Positions 6,933 through 26,282 of a stretch of DNA of 26,282 nt are shown in pieces. Position 1 is the stretch's first letter. Each line of letters begins with the position of its first letter. Made by a program: the position numbers and the translations under genes. A model generated the notes under the pieces. The model was not told where the DNA came from. It did no database searches and was given only the letters and a program-made list of their open reading frames with translations. The stretch is from a virus, in the IMG/VR virus record IMGVR_UViG_3300017783_000172, positions 1-26,282 of that record; one strand, written 5' to 3'.

Positions 6933-9900
6933 GATTTAAAAAAGTTATAGAAGGTTACGGAACATCATACAATGATTTAAAATCAGGTACAAATAAGCCT
7001 ACTGACTTTAGCAAAGCACTAGACAATGCAAAAGAACCTATAAAAGCAACAGACAAGAAAGGTAGCCAAGTTGATGTAATTTCTACAGCAGGAGAAAAAG
7101 ATGTTGTTGTACAACACACGAACAAAAGAAAGGAAATTGTTAAGTCAAAGGATTTAACAGTAGAAGACATAGCATTAGAATATAAACTTAAAAAAGCAAC
7201 ATCAATCAAAAACAAATATCGAAAACTCACAAATAAACTTGCTAAGAAACATTTAAAAGAACAGCCTGCAGAACTTTTCGAAATTAATTTTAATAGAAAA
7301 GAAATAGGCAAAGAAGCCATAGATGCTCCAGTCAAGTGTGGATTTGAAGCAGAAACATTTTTCTTTAATGTATCTGATGGAAGAGACATAGAAGAAATGT
7401 CTATAGATGATATAGAATACGAATACGGTGATTTACCAGAACAAGCATATGAAGATTATCAAGACTGGTTGTACAGCAAAGGACAAGAAGAATATATAGA
7501 TGACTTAGTAGTAGATAAGATACAAGAAGTTAGAGAAGATGAAGAATGGTTAAACGACTTTATAGATAGTGGCGATGGTCCAAGTTCAGAAGCAGTAGAA
7601 AGATACAAAGACAATTTTGAAGAGGAAGATCCTAAAGAATACGAAAACCGTGAAGAAGATGGCTGGGAGTATATAAATTGGGTAAGAGAATATGTCGAAG
7701 AAGAATACGAAGACGAATACCAAAATTGGTTAGACGGTGCTGTCCGAGAAGAATACGACTTAGATGATGAAGCCACAGAAGCCGCCAGAGACGATTACAG
7801 TATGAGCGATTGGATAAATGACAACTACAATTATATGAGTGACTTCCTAGGTGATTATGGTTATGACTATGGAGATGCCGGCGGCTCTATTGAAGGTGTT
7901 GCAGATGAATTACATAATTGGATTAAAGATAGCAGTGAATTCCCAGACTATCCGGAGTCAGGAGATTACGGAGATACTAATACTACTACAGGTTGGTCGG
8001 TTGAAAACGATAGCAGTATTGACGCAGATGAAGGTACTGGCGCAGAATTGATATCACCTGTATTTGACAGTCCCAGAGCAATGCTCAAAGAAATGAAAAG
8101 TCTATTTGACTGGAGTGCAAGAAACTTTGGCACAAACCGTTCAACAGGCTTACACATTACTATGAGTTGGCAGGGCGAGAAAGAAGTAGAACCAAACAAA
8201 TTAAAAATGGCATTGCTGTTAGGTGATGAATACTTATTAGCAGAGTTTGGTAGACTTAGAAATAGTTACTCAAAAAGTCAATATCAAAGTGTATTAAAAT
8301 ATGCTGAGAGAATGAAGAGAGGAGATGCTAAGGCATTTAAAGATTTTGAGAAAATGTTATCAAAAGGCATAGACGGTGGTAAAATGAATTCAATACATTT
8401 TAAAGGTGAAGAAGACAGAACATCAGGCAACAACCTAATTGAATTCCGTATTGCAGGTGGTAGTGATTACAACGAGATGTTTGATAAAGTGTTTAAGGCA
8501 ACAATCAGATATGCTACAATAATGAAAGCAGGGTACGATGAAGATGCCTTTAAAGAAGAATATGTAAAAGCAGTATTCAGACTTTTGCGTAAGTCACAGG
8601 AAATAGATCCTAAGAAATTAAAAGACTTAGAAGTAGTGAATCACGAAGTAATAGACGCCGCCAAAAGTATTGTGGGTAAAAAAGATTACTTTGATGTAAT
8701 AAAACTTTTAAATAGTTGTGTTGAATACTTGCAAAACTATGAAAAACTTAGTCAACCAAATGCTGACAAAGAATGGAAGCAGGAAATAAAAGATTACGAA
8801 AAAGGCACTGGCAGTAAATTTGAAATAGAAGAAGAAACAATCAAAGGATATATACAGCCTAACAGTATGGCGCCAAGCAAGAGAGCGGCAGGCGAACTAG
8901 ACAAAGCACAGGGCCATTTTGGTTCAGCATTAACGTTGTTAGCAAGAGATATAGCAGATGGTAATAACAGAGCACCTGTTAGTGCTAAAAGCATTGCCGC
9001 ATTTAGAAAGTTTGCCAAAGAACTACAATTAAAAAACGAGACTATAGAAAAACTTGCTTTTTCAAGTATGGATAATTTTAACTTTGATGGTACTGACAAA
9101 CAAAAAGTAGCAAGATTAAAGAAAGGGTTGAATACTTTATTCAGGCAAGACATAGTTAAAGAACCGGAGTATCTGACTCCGCAAAATATGGATATTATTG
9201 CTAGTAAGATGTGGCAATTCTTTATGTCCAAAGATTCTAAAGATAATGTTAAAAGAGACAAACTTGTAGACTTACTGGTTAATTTAACGCCTGCAAACAA
9301 CAAAGTAGAAGTCCAAGATACATTAAATGAATTAGATCACGAAAGAACACTGAATGGATTTGTTGCTAAGTTAAAAGGCAACGGCTGGAATACAAGGACA
9401 TCATTGTTAAAAACCAATGGGATTACAAGTAAAGATTCGGCAAAAGATATATTAAAATTCTTAGAACCTTATAAAGGATATGAACATCCAACAAGTCCGG
9501 ACCATCACGTCAATATCAAAAGCGATGATCCATATGAAGAAGTTGCTCAAATGTCAATGGTGCAAAAGTTAAGACACAGATTGGATCATTTAAATAATTT
9601 AGAAACAGATGATGCTGACAAGTATAATAAAATTAAAGCACAACTTCTCAAAGTAGGTGAGCAGTTAATCGACACAATTGGATATGATTACGAACAAGTA
9701 TTGCAAATGCGAAAAGAACACGGAATCTCAATAAGCCAATGGGCATTAGTTTTAGGTGAAAGAGATACTGAAAGAGCATTAGATTTTATAGAAAAGTCCA
9801 AAGACGATGATAATACATATAATTTTGTTACTGGGTATGACGATTACATAATAAGAAACAGTCTTAGTTTGCTACCATATTATTTCAAAGGAAAACAGCC

Positions 9901-12900
9901 TGGAGGCCAATCTGAACATTACAGAACAAATGCAGATGCAAATAAAATAATTAAGACACACTTTGCAGGATACAAAAAGTTCTTAAATGCTTTAGATAAA
10001 ATATTCACAGCAGAAGGATTTATAGATTTAAAAGCAGACATATCCAACAAAAACCGATTAGATAAACGCAACAAAGACTTTGAAAAGAATACCAGAGACA
10101 ATGCAAAAGCAAAATTAAACATACCTGAATACAGTTGGATGTACATAGACAAAGAATTCTTTGATACTATCACAGATGAAACCTATGACGACAGAGGGGC
10201 ATATTTAGATAATCACATAGACCACTTTAACAAAAATGTAAACAATACTAAAGTGTGGGTTATACCTTCCAGTCACTGGAGTGATGCCGAAGATGCCACA
10301 AACGGTTTAGAACTTATTGATACATTTGAAAAAAACAAAAACTATTATCACACTTGGCGTAAAAAAGGTTATAAAAAAATATTAAACAGGTTCACTAGGT
10401 TATATGGTTATAGTTGGTCTGACTTAGTTTTTGGTGATTCAATTATTAAAGGTGACGGTGATATATACGAAAAACTAAAAGACATTGGTATTGAGATAAC
10501 TCATCAAGGAGACAGCAGAAAAGGTGCAACTGGACAAGACGATTTATTTCCAGATGAAGAAACAGAAAATCCTATAAGTGGAGAACCACTAAACAGAAAC
10601 AGTAGTGACAGTTGGTCAAATATGGAAGACGACGCAAGTCAAAAACGTTTCGATGCATTTGATTGGGAGCAATACCCAGCAAAAATGAAAGATATTGTTG
10701 CTAAGGTTATGAAGCAAAAAGAACAATCAGGTTATGATAACAACAGTAGTTTTAAAGTAGCATTACAAGATGTATTGAACAAAGTTTTAGACGGTGATGT
10801 AGATATAGACCCAGACGATTTAGGCAAACCATTAGACAAGTTAGCCACAGCGGCAGGAATAGATCCTTTAGATGGTGGCTCCTCAAATGGTATAGCAAGT
10901 GCAACAGATTGGAAAAACTTGGCAGACTATTTAGGAATAGAACGCGGTGTTAACGACCAGGGTGCAGAGTTATTGAGAGTTATATATAATCGAACCGATG
11001 GCAATCACGAATGGAGACCTGCTGAAACCGACGAAGACGGTAAAAACGTAATTGGATTAAAAAGATGGGCCGCCGCAGTTAAACAAGCAGAAAAATATAT
11101 CAAAGACAACTACAATGTAAGTGGTGGAAACTATTTTAGAAAGAATGCAGACGGTAGTGATGGCGATGATGTAAGCACTATGTATAGTAATAGTGATAGT
11201 GATAATACAATATCAACACCACCAGAAAAAGAGTTTGATTCAGATTACGACAAAGCAAGAGCAAATCATACATTATTTAATAATATGATGGCTATGGGAA
11301 TGAACGACTATGTGAAACGAGGAGACGTAAATAATCTTGTTAATTTCCTAAACAACAGCGGTAATACAATTACTATGAAAACTGCTGTATTACAGGCTAT
11401 ACAACAAAACAAAGAAGGTGGCGGTGTACCTTTAGATTATCAAGACGCATTATCCCTAGGCTCACTTAGGTTACAACGTAGTAATGAAAGTGTGTTTGAT
11501 AGATTTGATAAACTGCCTTTACTAGAGCAGTTGCGTATTGTAAGCGAATCCAAAGTATTAGAAGGAACACGTTGCTGGAAAGGATACAAGAAGAAAGGCA
11601 CAAAGAAAATGTTTGGTAAAACAGTTCCTAATTGTGTAAAGAACGAAGGTGAAGTAGTTCCAATTAATAAAACAGAGCCTAAACGTGTAAGTTATCCACC
11701 TTACTTCTCACCAGAAGAAGCACAAAGAGCCTTCGATGAATGGAGGGACCAAGCACAGGTGGATCAAGGTGATGGTGTACTTATAAAAGACATAGACGGT
11801 AAACAGTATCGCATAATGACCAGTTATGGTAACCAAGCCTATGAAGATGGAGAAGTATTTTTACAAGGACTAACAGATCCTAATTATATAGAATTAGTTA
11901 ATAAAAAACCATATGGTCACCCGGACGCCGCAGAACTGTTATACTATCACACTAAAGATGGTACTTATGTACAAAATGTACAAATAGACGAAGGCGTTAA
12001 GGAAAATTTTGCTAAGTTAAAACAAGCATTGTCTATTGAGACAGGCGAAACAAAAGAGATGATGGATGTCTACCGACGTGCATTGAAAAATCAAGCAAGT
12101 TCAGGAGAAATTGATACAGCCAACAAACAGTTTAAAGATTTATTAAAACTGTTAGGTATAACAACCTTTGTAGCCGGAACGTCAATGATACCTGGAACAG
12201 GGCCAGCATTATTTCCTATTGAGAAGTATTTAAATACTAAGGGTATAAGTATATTACCAAATGGGTTCAAGGATGCCTTCCCACAGGCACTACCAAAAAG
12301 TTTACACAAAGTAGGCGATAAGGTAACATTAGGTGACGGTGCACCATATGATGTACTAAAAGTAGATGTTAATACAGGTACAGTTGATGTTAAAGACCAA
12401 AGTGGGAAAGTATGGACTAAGGTTAAATCAACTACTTTTTTCAAACAAGTACCAGAAAATTTCGCTGACGGCAAGAAGAAAGGCAAAAGCAGACCAGGCA
12501 GAGTAAAGAAAGCAGGTGCTAGTTGTAAAGGCTCAGTTACTGATTTGAAAGCAAAGGCTAAAAAGTATAGTGGTGAGAAAGGCAAAATGTATCAATGGTG
12601 TGCTAATATGAAAGGTGGCAAGAAGAAAGCAAACGAAGAGTTAGCAAACAAATTAAAATTAACAATCAAAGCAAACGCAATTAGTGAATCATTAATGATG
12701 ACTGAAGTAGATAGAGTAAAAGATATAAATGATATATTGTCTGTAGAATTTCCAGTAAACAATTATAAATTACAAATGAAAGCCTTTGTGGCATTACCAG
12801 TTCCTGAAATGTTAGACGCATTTAAAGACTTACACGCAAGGTATGGAGCAAAGAGTGATGCTAGAGAAATTGTAAGACATTTTGCAAAAAGCAGAATGCC

Positions 12901-12937: not shown

Positions 12938-12941
12938 GTTG
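12926..12941 (+). promoter_or_regulatory. RBS deciding a TTG start
   Basis: TAGGAG at 12927-12932 lies 6 nt before TTG at 12939. The same TAG is an in-frame stop for that reading frame, so nothing further upstream can be the start, and the first internal ATG is at codon 194, after the whole SOD domain. The TTG start is therefore well supported. Confidence 0.8.
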
Positions 12942-15059
12942 AGACTTAAAAGCATAGTAGTCGATAAGTGTCCTAGGACAAAAGAGTCAAAGTGCCAATG
13001 CGACAAAGTAAATGCTATTACAGAAGCACAAGAAACTGTTAAAGCAGTATGCGAATTTGAACATAAGTCGATAGACGGCTTTACAGGCTATGCTACAGTA
13101 ACACAAAAACCCGATGAAGAAACAATTATTAAAGGTATCTTTAAAGGACTAACTCCAGGCAAACACGGATTTCATATACACGAATTTGGTGACCTTAGCA
13201 AAGGTTGTGAAAGTGCAGGTGGACATTACAACCCACACGGTGTTGACCACGGTGATATAAAATCAGGACACATAGGAGATTTAGGCAATGTGGTTGCAGA
13301 CCAAGACGGTGTTGCAAAATTTAAAATAGTTGCTCCTAGGATAGACCTAGTAGGCGAGTATAGTGTAGTTGGCAGAGCATTTGTTTTACATCAAGATGAA
13401 GACGACTTAGGCAATGGTGGAGATGACGAAAGTTTAAAAACAGGTAACGCAGGTGATAGAGTTGCTTGTGGTGTTATTAGATTAGCAGAATCATTAGAGG
13501 AAGACATTGCAAAAGAAATGTTTGACCAAGAAGCCTTTGATACGATTTTTAGTAAAAGAATAGCAAGAAAGAATATGGTACAAGTCAAAGAGCCTGACTT
13601 AATCAAAAATAAAATAAAATATGAAAGAATAGACGATTTTAATAGAGATGATATTGTGCCATCTCAAGACCCTAAAGATTTAAAACCAGACTTAGTTAGA
13701 AAAGTAATGAACGACTTTTATGGCAACAAAGATCCGCAGTATAAAGATAAGCCTATTATCATTGATAAAAACAATAGAATTATTAATGGACATCATAGAT
13801 TAAAAGCCGCAAAAAGATTACAAGTAAATGCAGTTACAGTATTAAAAGTATCAGATAAATCAGTAGAAGAGTTAAATGCTATGCCTGAATTACAAAGCAG
13901 TAAGCAGACAGAAAGCAAAGAACAACAGTGGAAGAGCAAACTTAATACTTTGATTGAAGCACCATTTAAAAAAGGTGCTGATACTTTTAAAGGAGTTCCG
14001 CCAAACGCATATCGTATTGCCACAACAGACACAACACCTAGATATGATTATGATCCTGAGAAAGATTATCGTGCAGGTACAAGTCTAGGACCTATACCTA
14101 CAATACAAAGTCCTACAGAAGTATGGTACAAAGATGGTAAACTGTTTATTTTTTACATAAAGAATGTGGAGGATGCAAATGATTTACCCAAGCAGACATT
14201 TATTCAGAAAGTTAAGGACTTCGTTTCGAGAACACCAGCAAAACAAGATCCAACAAGTCCTCAGTATAAAAAAGAAATTTTAGGATATCTAACATTGGAG
14301 CAATATAAAGACGGCTACAAAGTTTTAACAACAGCATTAGATCCTAGTATACAAGGACAAGGTAGAGCATTGAAACTGTACATTGCCTTTAGTGCCTGGA
14401 AGAATGTGCCCTTATATTCAGACTATACTCAAACACCATCTGCACAGAGAATGTGGAGTAGTTTGATTAAACGTTACCCCAACAGAGTAGTGGCTTATGA
14501 CCAGCAAAAAGATGTAGACATCAAACTAAACAAATTAACAGGCGATGAACTTTACCCAGAGTTTCCTCCTGAAGATGAACTACTTAGCAAAAGCAAAATT
14601 GGTGTAGCAAAGGTATTCCGGTCAACATACCTACTAAAGTTATTACCTGACAAAGCATACGAGTCTATAGATGAAAGTATAGATGTAATTAAAACATTTC
14701 TTTCAGTGTTTAGATCCTATGCAGAAAAACTTCCTATCAGAGTTGAAACCACTAACGAGTTTTTTAGAAAATTACAAGAAACAAAATCGCCTCAGGATGC
14801 AATCAGTGTGCTGGAATCTTATAGAGAATCTAAGGATTTACTAACAGCAATGGACGACTCTATTAAACAATTACAAACAATGGAAATGGGAGACTTAATA
14901 AAAAGACAAGTCAACATAGAACTTGAAAAAGCATTAGAAACAAAGTTTATTTTTGCTCCAGAAGACGTTCTACGATATCTTTATTTTTTAATGCCAGACG
15001 ATGTAAAGTCTCATACCAATGCTAAAAGTATTGCAAAACTAGTCGGCAGACTACACTAA
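12939..15059 (+). CDS. Cu/Zn superoxide dismutase - ParB/Srx - GNAT-like fusion
   Basis: 706 residues from a TTG start. Residues 34-183 are a complete Cu/Zn SOD: copper ligands H79, H81 and H151, bridging H96, zinc ligands H104, H111 and D114, disulfide cysteines C90 and C177, and active-site R174. No signal peptide is present; a 29-residue leader ends ITE-A. Residues about 225-308 are a ParB/sulfiredoxin-type fold (PIIID, then INGHHRLKAAKRL with GHHR at 284-287). Residues about 385-525 look like a GNAT acyltransferase (ILGYL strand, then LDPSIQGQGRALKLY at 467-481, the acetyl-CoA loop). The C-terminal 170 residues are helical and unrecognised. (L/I)xE sites lie at the domain borders (29, 188, 340). 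SOD assignment is near certain, ParB/Srx good, GNAT moderate. Confidence 0.9.
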   Translation: MRLKSIVVDKCPRTKESKCQCDKVNAITEAQETVKAVCEFEHKSIDGFTGYATVTQKPDEETIIKGIFKGLTPGKHGFHIHEFGDLSKGCESAGGHYNPHGVDHGDIKSGHIGDLGNVVADQDGVAKFKIVAPRIDLVGEYSVVGRAFVLHQDEDDLGNGGDDESLKTGNAGDRVACGVIRLAESLEEDIAKEMFDQEAFDTIFSKRIARKNMVQVKEPDLIKNKIKYERIDDFNRDDIVPSQDPKDLKPDLVRKVMNDFYGNKDPQYKDKPIIIDKNNRIINGHHRLKAAKRLQVNAVTVLKVSDKSVEELNAMPELQSSKQTESKEQQWKSKLNTLIEAPFKKGADTFKGVPPNAYRIATTDTTPRYDYDPEKDYRAGTSLGPIPTIQSPTEVWYKDGKLFIFYIKNVEDANDLPKQTFIQKVKDFVSRTPAKQDPTSPQYKKEILGYLTLEQYKDGYKVLTTALDPSIQGQGRALKLYIAFSAWKNVPLYSDYTQTPSAQRMWSSLIKRYPNRVVAYDQQKDVDIKLNKLTGDELYPEFPPEDELLSKSKIGVAKVFRSTYLLKLLPDKAYESIDESIDVIKTFLSVFRSYAEKLPIRVETTNEFFRKLQETKSPQDAISVLESYRESKDLLTAMDDSIKQLQTMEMGDLIKRQVNIELEKALETKFIFAPEDVLRYLYFLMPDDVKSHTNAKSIAKLVGRLH

Positions 15060-24280: not shown

Positions 24281-24604
24281 ATGAAAGCAATACTAGACAA
24301 ATTAACAAAACACGATACTATAACAATTAAATTAGCAAGTGGCGAAGAAGTCGTTGCTAGTTTTCAAGAGGCTGATGATACTTCCTTATCAATCGATAAA
24401 CCATTAGCACTTAGTCCTACACCACAAGGCGGAGTTGGATTAGTTCCTTGGATCTTTAGTTGTAAGCCTGGCCCTACAACAATCAATATCAATAGTGTTT
24501 TAGCACTAGTTGGAACAGACTCTGAAGTTGCAGACGCATATCAGCAAAGTACATCAAACATAATTAGACCTTCCTCACCTGACAAACAAATCTTAACAGG
24601 CTAG
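24281..24604 (+). CDS. Sm-like (Hfq/LSm-fold) phage protein
   Basis: 107 residues. The segment DTITIKLASGEEVVASFQEADDTSLSIDKPLAL (about 12-44) has the strand pattern and the SGEEV turn of an Sm1 motif: a helix, then strands with a Gly in the second. A second strand pair (VPWIFSC, INSVLALVGT) completes a five-strand barrel. The last 25 residues are polar and probably disordered. Related short proteins occur in T4-like marine phages, from memory. RNA binding is the family's usual property, but a structural role is possible. It is the only gene between a weak late promoter and the next one. Confidence 0.6.
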   Translation: MKAILDKLTKHDTITIKLASGEEVVASFQEADDTSLSIDKPLALSPTPQGGVGLVPWIFSCKPGPTTININSVLALVGTDSEVADAYQQSTSNIIRPSSPDKQILTG

Positions 24605-24628: not shown

Positions 24629-24943
24629 ATGAGACCAGTAGCAAGAATTTTTTTAGACTCAGCAATAGGACCTATCATAGGACCAGGAGCAATTGGTGTA
24701 GGCATATTTGGACCAGTACTAGTTAACGGCATACCAGCCGCACTACTAGGCGACTCTATTACTCCTCACCCACCAGCACCTGATGTACCAACCTGTGCTG
24801 TAAGCAAAATTGCCAGTGGTGCGTTTTCTCCACCTATGGCAGTACTCTTCAATGGTAGACCTGTAGCAAGGATGGGAGATTTAACAACTTGCGGACATCC
24901 TATTATGAGTGGCTCTTTTAATGTATTTGCTGGCTTGGCATAA
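24629..24943 (+). CDS. PAAR-domain spike-tip protein
   Basis: 104 residues, the length of stand-alone PAAR proteins such as T4 gp5.4. Seen: the opening strand with RPVAR, VNGIPAALLGDSITPHPP with H47, C56, the second half repeating the pattern (VLFNGRPVARMGDLTTCGHP with C88 and H90), and the SGSFNVFAGLA end. H47, C56, C88 and H90 are the likely metal ligands of the sharp tip. The N-terminus is Gly/Pro/Ile-rich and fits the family's glycine-rich strands. It caps the central spike of the contractile tail and pierces the outer membrane, so the host is presumably Gram-negative. The start is leaderless. Confidence 0.9.
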   Translation: MRPVARIFLDSAIGPIIGPGAIGVGIFGPVLVNGIPAALLGDSITPHPPAPDVPTCAVSKIASGAFSPPMAVLFNGRPVARMGDLTTCGHPIMSGSFNVFAGLA

Positions 24944-24944
24944 T

Positions 24945-26003
24945 ATGGAACAAAGAGATTATCAAGACAAAACAATACTAATAGACAACATTACAAATAG
25001 AGTAATGTTCAATTTCAAAGATAAAACATCTAACGATTTAAGTTGGAGTGATAACATACTAGAAGTAACTAGCAATCACAAAGATATAAATGTGTGTTGT
25101 AGTGGCGGATTAGACAGTGATATAATGCTTAGACTGTTTCACAAACACAGAAATGTGAAATGTTTTATAGGCAGATGGATGGATAATGGAGTATGCTATA
25201 ATGATTATGATATACAATATGCAGTACAAACTTGCGAAGAGTTAGACATACCATATCAATTCATAGACGTAAACTTTGCAAACTTCTTTGACAACGGAGA
25301 GTTTATTAGTTACGGAACTGCTTACAAGTGTACTAGTCCTCAGTTGTGTTTACATTTAAAAATGTTTGACATTATAGGAGAGGATGTAGCAATAGGAGGA
25401 AACTTCTTTATACCAAGAATGGCTCCAGGCCCACAGCCTGATATACCACAACTTATACCAGAGAATAACTCTATGGTGTATGATTTATTCTTCAGTGATA
25501 AAGGGTGTGACTTGGGTAACTTGCATTATTATAATACTAGTTTAGCACTTTGCACATACAAAACAATTAAGCATACACACTTAAATATGCAAGATAAGGC
25601 ATACTTAGAGTACGATAAGTTGCAACAAACAACATTATTTGATGTTAAAAAAGCAAATGATGAAATAGTAACTGAATATAAAGAAGGTAAGAAGTTAGAT
25701 GATGCAGTTTTAAGTAATACAGGAAGTAAAACTCCTGGTGCCTATTTAAGAATCATAATGAACTACATTAAAAGACAGCACTATTACTCTGCAGGAGGGT
25801 TTGAAGTGGTTGCTAAAAGCAACAAATATACCGGCTTCGAAGGAGTAAAACGTTACTATGTAGATAAATATAATGAACAACACGATGTTTTCGACAATAG
25901 ATTTCGTAAGCATCTAGAAAAGATTGTATCTATACCAACACTTGAAATAGATATAATAAACGAATATAAGAAACTCGGGGAAAAAGAATGGCAGAATTCA
26001 TAG
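24945..26003 (+). CDS. PP-loop (N-type) ATP pyrophosphatase
   Basis: 352 residues from ATG 24945, one base after the PAAR stop; an earlier in-frame ATG would run into the PAAR gene. The PP-loop is VCCSGGLDSDIMLRLF with SGGLDS at 53-58, after a first strand and before a helix, as in asparagine synthetase, argininosuccinate synthase and related enzymes that activate a substrate by adenylation. A second strand region follows (VKCFIGRWM, CEELDIPYQFIDV) with conserved-looking GGNFFIPRMAP at 159-169. The Cys cluster of QueC is not evident. The C-terminal 130 residues are helical and basic. Target unknown; amidation or similar modification of a small molecule or protein is possible. Confidence 0.75.
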   Translation: MEQRDYQDKTILIDNITNRVMFNFKDKTSNDLSWSDNILEVTSNHKDINVCCSGGLDSDIMLRLFHKHRNVKCFIGRWMDNGVCYNDYDIQYAVQTCEELDIPYQFIDVNFANFFDNGEFISYGTAYKCTSPQLCLHLKMFDIIGEDVAIGGNFFIPRMAPGPQPDIPQLIPENNSMVYDLFFSDKGCDLGNLHYYNTSLALCTYKTIKHTHLNMQDKAYLEYDKLQQTTLFDVKKANDEIVTEYKEGKKLDDAVLSNTGSKTPGAYLRIIMNYIKRQHYYSAGGFEVVAKSNKYTGFEGVKRYYVDKYNEQHDVFDNRFRKHLEKIVSIPTLEIDIINEYKKLGEKEWQNS

Positions 26004-26282
26004 TTAAAATTGACCAAGCAGGTGATACTGCTAATACGGCGATTACGGGACTTGGCGGAACGGTCTCTAAAAGATATCAAGACTTGTCAGAAGATACAAA
26101 ATCTTTATTACTAGTCGATGTTCCTGCGGATCAAGTTGATAACATAGATGGATTAACTGGATTTCAATTTAAAGAAGGTACTTCAGCAAACTCATTTATA
26201 TCAAGTGAGACAACAAGTCACTGGCATTTACAAAGATTGGTAACTAGAAACTTACCTTTAAGAACAGAATTTGATGCAACAT
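25988..26282 (+). CDS. Possible subtilisin-like protease, 3' end outside the window
   Basis: 98 residues visible from ATG 25988, overlapping the previous gene by 16 bases with a purine-rich RBS (GGGG) upstream. Residues 1-65 (MAEFIVKIDQAGD, then SLLLVDVPADQVDNIDGLTG) look like an I9-type inhibitor propeptide. SHWHLQRLVTRNLPL at 78-92 resembles the W.LQRI lead-in to the catalytic domain of S8 proteases. The catalytic Asp, His and Ser would lie beyond the window edge, so this is a suggestion only. It is in the same unit as the PAAR and PP-loop genes. Confidence 0.55.
   Translation, partial: MAEFIVKIDQAGDTANTAITGLGGTVSKRYQDLSEDTKSLLLVDVPADQVDNIDGLTGFQFKEGTSANSFISSETTSHWHLQRLVTRNLPLRTEFDAT

Follow-up and report, generated by a model that had tools for sequence, protein, structure and literature searches.

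Beta-lactam and carbapenam synthetases belong to the asparagine-synthetase (AsnS) branch of PP-loop ATP pyrophosphatases, lack a working glutaminase, and retain a degenerate N-terminal domain. A C-terminal lysine is catalytic in AsnB (K449) and beta-lactam synthetase (K443), and QueC carries a C-terminal four-cysteine zinc site (CxxC motif). According to an excerpt of one report, the products of AsnS-like enzymes include amides and lactams, as well as nitriles in one reported RiPP pathway (PMC13060819). Part of another article describes asnH of L. casei, an AsnS-like gene that alters peptidoglycan and whose mutants resist phage J1 (PMC3885529); by analogy, envelope amidation may matter to phages. 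Our search for PP-loop proteins or asparagine synthase together with phage, PAAR or desaturase found nothing relevant, and the literature searched gave no description of phage amidation of an envelope lipid, sugar or peptide. In a partial text, asnB is named in a KEGG table for viruses of a karst lake (PMC8226683). For phage PP-loop genes, QueC or asparagine synthase is an easy default annotation.

The window analysed here is a 26,282-nt virus record (IMG/VR IMGVR_UViG_3300017783_000172, positions 1 to 26,282) with a gene for a PP-loop protein, P0001. The gene is real and conserved, and its branch of a known enzyme class is apparently undescribed. Our preferred reading, to which we give a probability of about one half and which leans on the modelled fold of a homologue, is that P0001 is an ATP pyrophosphatase of the AsnS/beta-lactam-synthetase type, with a single domain and no glutaminase, carried by the phage as amide-forming cargo and not as a component of the tail tip. 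Most likely, P0001 would adenylate a carboxylate and pass it to ammonia or an amine to give an amide, and its target in the infected cell would be either a small molecule or a lipid, sugar or peptide of the envelope; its placement behind the PAAR gene would be happenstance fixed in this lineage.

The PP-loop gene and its close relatives

A sequence-only reading of this DNA had described a PP-loop ATP pyrophosphatase with SGGLDS at residues 53-58 and a basic, helical C-terminal half, its gene beginning one base past the PAAR stop codon and running into the next. The P0001 ORF translates with no internal stop, the motif lies where that reading placed it, and the enzyme identity is backed by the motif, by purifying selection, and by the fold of a homologue. 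The junction is also as described, with one base between the PAAR stop and the P0001 start (TAA-T-ATG) and a 16-nt overlap between P0001 and the next ORF. The C-terminal half is not basic, as residues 177-352 contain 26 K+R and 25 D+E (pI 7.7); its helical character is plausible, since the AF2 model of a homologue is predicted to consist mostly of helices past residue 186. Also encoded in the window are nrdA, nrdB and an exonuclease, and there are matches to structural proteins. At 12939-15059, a 706-aa protein combines a superoxide-dismutase-like N-terminal part with a ParB-like nuclease-type part, as judged from PHROGs matches.

Table 1. Features around the PAAR and PP-loop genes of the window
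Feature	Coordinates	Strand	Remark
107-aa phrog_527 protein, upstream neighbour	24281..24604	+	conserved in 12/12 contigs
PAAR-motif (tail spike tip) gene	24629..24943	+	Pfam PF05488, 45.4 bits (cut-off 27)
PP-loop protein P0001, 352 aa	24945..26003	+	probable stand-alone asparagine-synthetase-type synthetase
SGGLDS PP-loop motif, residues 53-58	25101..25118	+	SGG.DS invariant in 19/19 aligned family members
KYTGFE, residues 294-299, fits K.TG[FL][ED]	25824..25841	+	candidate counterpart of AsnB C-terminal catalytic lysine
Subtilase (Peptidase_S8) gene start	25988..26282	+	window end cuts gene; complete, 541 aa, in sister contigs

Close relatives of P0001 form a lineage of 12 IMG/VR contigs with identities of 100, 89 or about 79-81%, and the same 12 contigs were recovered whether the scan used the full-length protein, a conserved stretch, the 107-aa protein encoded upstream, or the motif pattern. 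All 12 keep the PP-loop gene, 11 at full length and one running to the contig end. Between the window and the sister contig L019, dN/dS is about 0.24 overall and, by segment, 0.08 for residues 1-150, about 0.49 for residues 151-275, and 0.14 for residues 276-352. These values show purifying selection on the PP-loop gene and indicate a maintained gene with a fast-evolving middle part. In a tblastn search of 50,697 phage records, P0001 had no match at 1e-3 and six chance-level matches at E<=10, one of them MnmA; against PHROGs, there was no match at 0.1, with QueC-like phrog_1550 appearing only at E 0.15.

Family tests, shared motifs and fold

More distant relatives came from a looser motif pattern, which returned 24 loci (the 12 known, two true relatives, and 10 unrelated), and from an alignment including the two relatives, which led to 13 IMG/VR contigs outside the window lineage. 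A 14th relative lies on one contig of an archaeal MAG, which could be a phage contig. Because this clade includes near-duplicates (L074/L076/L077; L072/L073 alike), the 14 contigs amount to about 11 independent cases. P0001 is 19-24% identical to distant members, about 22% (11 of the 14 aligned), and hhalign matches the window clade to the distant clade over N-terminal residues 47-145 (E 4e-14, probability 98). The sequence-only reading held that degraded PP-loop residues in homologues would speak against it; the PP-loop is intact in every homologue, and all 14 distant relatives carry both SGG.DS and K.TG[FL][ED]. Among 19 members, the invariant positions include, in P0001 numbering, SGG.DS, R63, R77, N86, Y88, D89, Y92, A93, C97, Y104, D108, F114, P132, G187, K294, T296, and G297.

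The lysine of KYTGFE is a candidate counterpart of the AsnB-type C-terminal catalytic lysine, and in a global profile alignment the R.K of the distant clade falls on R-Q-K-E-Q-F of AsnB. K.TG[FL][ED] arose by chance in 247 of 200,000 shuffled C-terminal sequences, and a C-terminal-region HMM separates P0001 poorly, with 31 of 2,000 shuffles scoring equally well; the sharing of this motif by P0001 and the distant clade is suggestive at the level of sequence. The second AsnB-type motif (G.G.D) takes the form G.[GS]D in most of the distant clade and GGNFF in the window clade, where the substitution may reflect a different metal or substrate site. The altered motif and the fast-evolving middle third (dN/dS about 0.49) are what one would expect if the PP-loop fold served as a non-catalytic scaffold or belonged to a degenerate protein, but SGG.DS, R77, N86, Y88, D89, D108, and K294 are invariant across clades and both ends of the protein are under strong purifying selection, which makes a loss of catalysis highly unlikely. 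Some distant loci have SGG(S/P/V)DS proteins in tandem with the AsnS-like gene (L074 5919-7088; L078 5909-7027 and 8266-9465; L075); two of these that we tested had no Pfam match, and single-linkage BLAST joins such proteins to the family.

Profile searches with P0001 gave near-threshold matches to the nucleotide-binding part of MnmA/NadE only, and members of the distant clade gave near-threshold matches to QueC. The best Pfam match of P0001 is MnmA (PF03054), at 20.8 bits just over the cut-off of 20.6. This match and the tRNA genes that two sister contigs carry some 4.5 kb downstream would fit a tRNA-modifying enzyme of the MnmA or TilS type. We regard such a role as very improbable, because the match covers residues 48-110, a generic nucleotide-binding part, and the full-length NCBIfam models are far under their cut-offs for P0001 (trmU/MnmA TIGR00420, 18.4 vs 236.95; lysidine_TilS_N, 14.4 vs 93.6). 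Pfam QueC was matched by 11 of 16 family members, over the PP-loop part only and with a best E of 4e-4, and QueC was the sole NCBIfam match of two distant members. P0001 itself had no match to QueC PF06508 at E<=1, one window-lineage record had a match below cut-off (12.7 bits), and the P0001 sequence has no QueC-type CxxC zinc motif. Asn_synthase PF00733 also had no P0001 match at E<=1, was absent from records G000-G003, and was matched weakly by 1 of 16 family members (E 0.094).

P0001 is too short to hold a fused N-terminal glutaminase domain, and a separate GATase_7 domain (PF13537) was found in 0 of 20 records, which are fragments, and in 14/14 control genomes. Without a glutaminase domain, the nitrogen donor would be free ammonia or an amine, barring assistance from a host glutaminase.

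AF2 prediction for P0001 with 10 close homologues gave an unusable model (pLDDT 35). We modelled a distant member in its place because the alignment of that member was deeper, and the 19-row family alignment led by it gave a pLDDT of 90.2 and a pTM of 0.89; given the pLDDT of 35 for P0001 itself, its fold is read across from this homologue at about 22% identity. The best PDB match of the homologue model was human ASNS (Z 15.1 over 265 residues, 4.2 Å), followed by E. coli AsnB (1ct9; Z 14.3), beta-lactam synthetase (13.9), and carbapenam synthetase (12.3). The next classes were NadE (9.9), LarE (9.5), ArtA (9.4), TilS (MesJ; 8.6), and GuaA (8.4), covering 144-176 residues, and together with TtuA these matches span Z 8.3-9.9 over 144-185 residues. 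Foldseek ranked beta-lactam synthetase first (E 3e-6). QueC chains were absent from the 50 matches listed in the fold search, an absence and nothing more. In the viral structure library BFVD, the nearest entry was A0A6J5TAF3 (TM 0.87, 27% identity to the homologue, E 3.7e-21), and the fourth match, A0A6J7WV94, is labelled "Asparagine synthase".

The sequence-only reading had proposed a fold-level comparison of PP-loop classes, and in this comparison, as modelled for the homologue, asparagine synthetase ranks ahead of TilS and the sulfurtransferases; the TilS match (Z 8.6) covers 162 residues, compared with 265 for ASNS (Z 15.1). We infer that the window protein shares the AsnS-type fold and chemistry. 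Amide chemistry is predicted from that fold, considered together with what AsnS-like enzymes are known to do.

Neighbours in two groups of phages

The order nrdB, 107-aa protein, PAAR, PP-loop and the PAAR spacing are constant in 12/12 lineage contigs. An S8 subtilase gene lies downstream of the PP-loop gene in 11/11 contigs that are long enough, and a radical SAM gene follows the subtilase in 9/9 contigs that reach further; both genes are above Pfam cut-offs. By eye, the catalytic domain of the S8 protein is preceded by a pro-domain-like start and followed by its own C-terminal extension. The radical SAM protein has no relative among the phage records, and we rejected its assignment as QueE-like (TIGR03365, E 0.03). 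In L019 the radical SAM gene (10679-11706) is in two frames (279 + 63 aa), owing to an assembly error or a mutation, and in other lineage contigs it matches in one piece. Downstream of these genes, L016 has four tRNA genes at 13614-14685 (Thr, Ala, Asp, Glu), and L019 has the same four. In the two records inspected out of 79 with PAAR matches, both Vibrio phages, PAAR is followed by a gene-25-like lysozyme or, with equal spacing, by an unnamed gene, and not by a PP-loop gene.

This arrangement is the basis of the main rival to the cargo reading, a maturation cassette in which the PP-loop enzyme, the S8 protease, and the radical SAM enzyme would modify a phage protein or peptide (e.g. the protease or the tip) in a RiPP-like manner, by AsnS-type amidation, cyclisation, or nitrile formation, from a co-directional, overlapping unit behind PAAR. 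Several observations bear on it. First, the PAAR-PP-loop-S8-radical SAM order, with overlaps or short gaps, is constant in the lineage (12/12, 11/11, 9/9). Second, AsnS-like enzymes are described as acting on peptides, including lasso peptides and RiPPs with C-terminal amides or nitriles, in the excerpt seen of PMC13060819. Third, and against a cassette, the S8 subtilase is absent from 10/10 distant records, and its pro-domain-like start, catalytic domain, and C-terminal extension would be in keeping with an independent protease, secreted or virion-borne. Finally, inspection of the small ORFs conserved between L016 and L019 revealed no plausible precursor peptide, and we dropped a RiPP precursor as a candidate. 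Taken together, we consider the cassette unlikely.

Distant relatives have other neighbours. PAAR occurs in 5 of 10 distant records, about 11-15 kb away, and is adjacent to the PP-loop gene in none. A fatty-acid-hydroxylase-like ORF is directly upstream in 8 of 14 distant loci, desaturase-like ORFs are found in 9 of 14, and one or the other or both lie within 5 kb in all 14; FA_hydroxylase (PF04116) and a DesA-type desaturase were each confirmed on one example. Desaturase PF00487 was detected in 6/10 distant records and in 0/10 window-lineage records tested. Some distant loci also encode a P450, a larger radical SAM protein, UDP-sugar dehydrogenase-like and HldE-like proteins, FolE, QueE, or a TGT-like protein. 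The cytochrome P450-like gene of L074, L075, L076, and L077, uncultured phage contigs (e.g. L074 8419-9558; PF00067, 56 bits on L074), lies near desaturases, a radical SAM protein, and AsnS-like genes.

Our preference for a cargo enzyme over a tail component follows from the non-adjacency of PAAR in distant records and from the hydroxylase-like or desaturase-like ORFs at 14/14 distant loci. The coupling to the tail tip suggested earlier stands insofar as PAAR adjacency is fixed in the lineage (12/12), but it is absent in distant relatives and thus looks like a lineage-specific neighbourhood; we dropped the PP-loop protein as a tail part, for which there was no evidence. P0001 probably works on metabolites or the envelope. 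As the desaturase context is absent from the window lineage, the type of cargo suggested by the distant loci is not directly transferable to it. A broader proposal, which we find quite doubtful, is that the wide phage AsnS-type family carries out amide formation in natural-product-like pathways encoded by phages. In distant relatives the partners would be di-iron hydroxylases/desaturases, radical SAM proteins, P450, UDP-sugar dehydrogenases, and PP-loop-like proteins, and in the window lineage they would be the radical SAM enzyme and the subtilase encoded after the tail spike; during infection, these phages would make or amidate a lipid, sugar, or peptide and so change the host envelope or the virion.

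The same neighbourhoods bear on a divergent QueC-like enzyme of the 7-deazaguanine pathway, acting in DNA or tRNA modification. Besides the Pfam QueC matches, this idea draws on FolE in 4/10 distant records, on QueE-like ORFs in five distant loci and TGT-like ORFs in three, on the finding of no full QueC in distant phage records, and on QueD in one window-lineage contig. However, FolE is missing from 6/10 distant and 10/10 window-lineage records and TGT (PF01702) from 20/20, all contigs being fragments; P0001 has no CxxC site; the modelled homologue fold ranks AsnS far above other classes; and singleton phage QueC-like proteins may be other N-type ATP-PPases, as stated in an extract of Hutinet et al. 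(PMC6884629). A search for 7-deazaguanine genes, proposed in the sequence-only reading, returned for the window lineage a QueD-like gene in 1/10 records and no FolE, TGT, or QueC at cut-off. A second radical SAM protein that could serve as QueE was also not found in these fragment records, where the sole one adjoins S8. We dropped a full queuosine pathway, as partners are missing, and judge a QueC-like role improbable; neither queuosine/7-deazaguanine nor tRNA roles are supported for the window lineage.

The QueD/PTPS gene of G001 (reverse strand, 7713-8111; 66 bits) lies ~25 kb downstream of the PP-loop gene, and by eye this contig also has ClpX-like, peptide-deformylase-like, UV-endonuclease-like, and c-type-cytochrome-like ORFs. 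L068, L071, and L073 (e.g. L073 224-1747) encode a 507-aa DSGGFQ protein with a weak tRNA-guanine transglycosylase match, near FolE/QueE; it is possibly a DNA 7-deazaguanine inserter in these phages.

Comparison with known enzymes

The family is now delimited, with a fold that points to glutaminase-free amide chemistry and with fixed but different neighbours in two phage groups. If the target of amidation is a lipid, sugar, or peptide of the envelope, the family would represent a phage route to altered host surfaces or virions, and gene order supplies concrete candidates to assay.

Among known enzymes, QueC resembles the family as the Pfam match of the majority of its distant members, in the PP-loop part only, but P0001 lacks the CxxC zinc site, pathway partners are mostly absent, and AsnS is the better fold match. 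A0A6J5TAF3 and A0A6J7WV94, "uncultured Caudovirales phage" proteins with no function assigned, are like the homologue, and the A0A6J5TAF3 match indicates that the wider family is already in UniProt, unnamed. Beta-lactam and carbapenam synthetases give the best Foldseek matches of the homologue model (E 3e-6), although the N-terminal part of the phage protein is just a short piece. Compared with AsnB (E. coli 1ct9, human ASNS), the phage protein has no N-terminal glutaminase, P0001 has no Pfam Asn_synthase match and about 10-15% identity, and the second motif (G.G.DE) is lost in the window clade. The phage family shares with AsnB the SGG.DS PP-loop, a homologue fold predicted to match over about 265 residues, and, as a candidate feature, a conserved lysine motif at a comparable C-terminal position.
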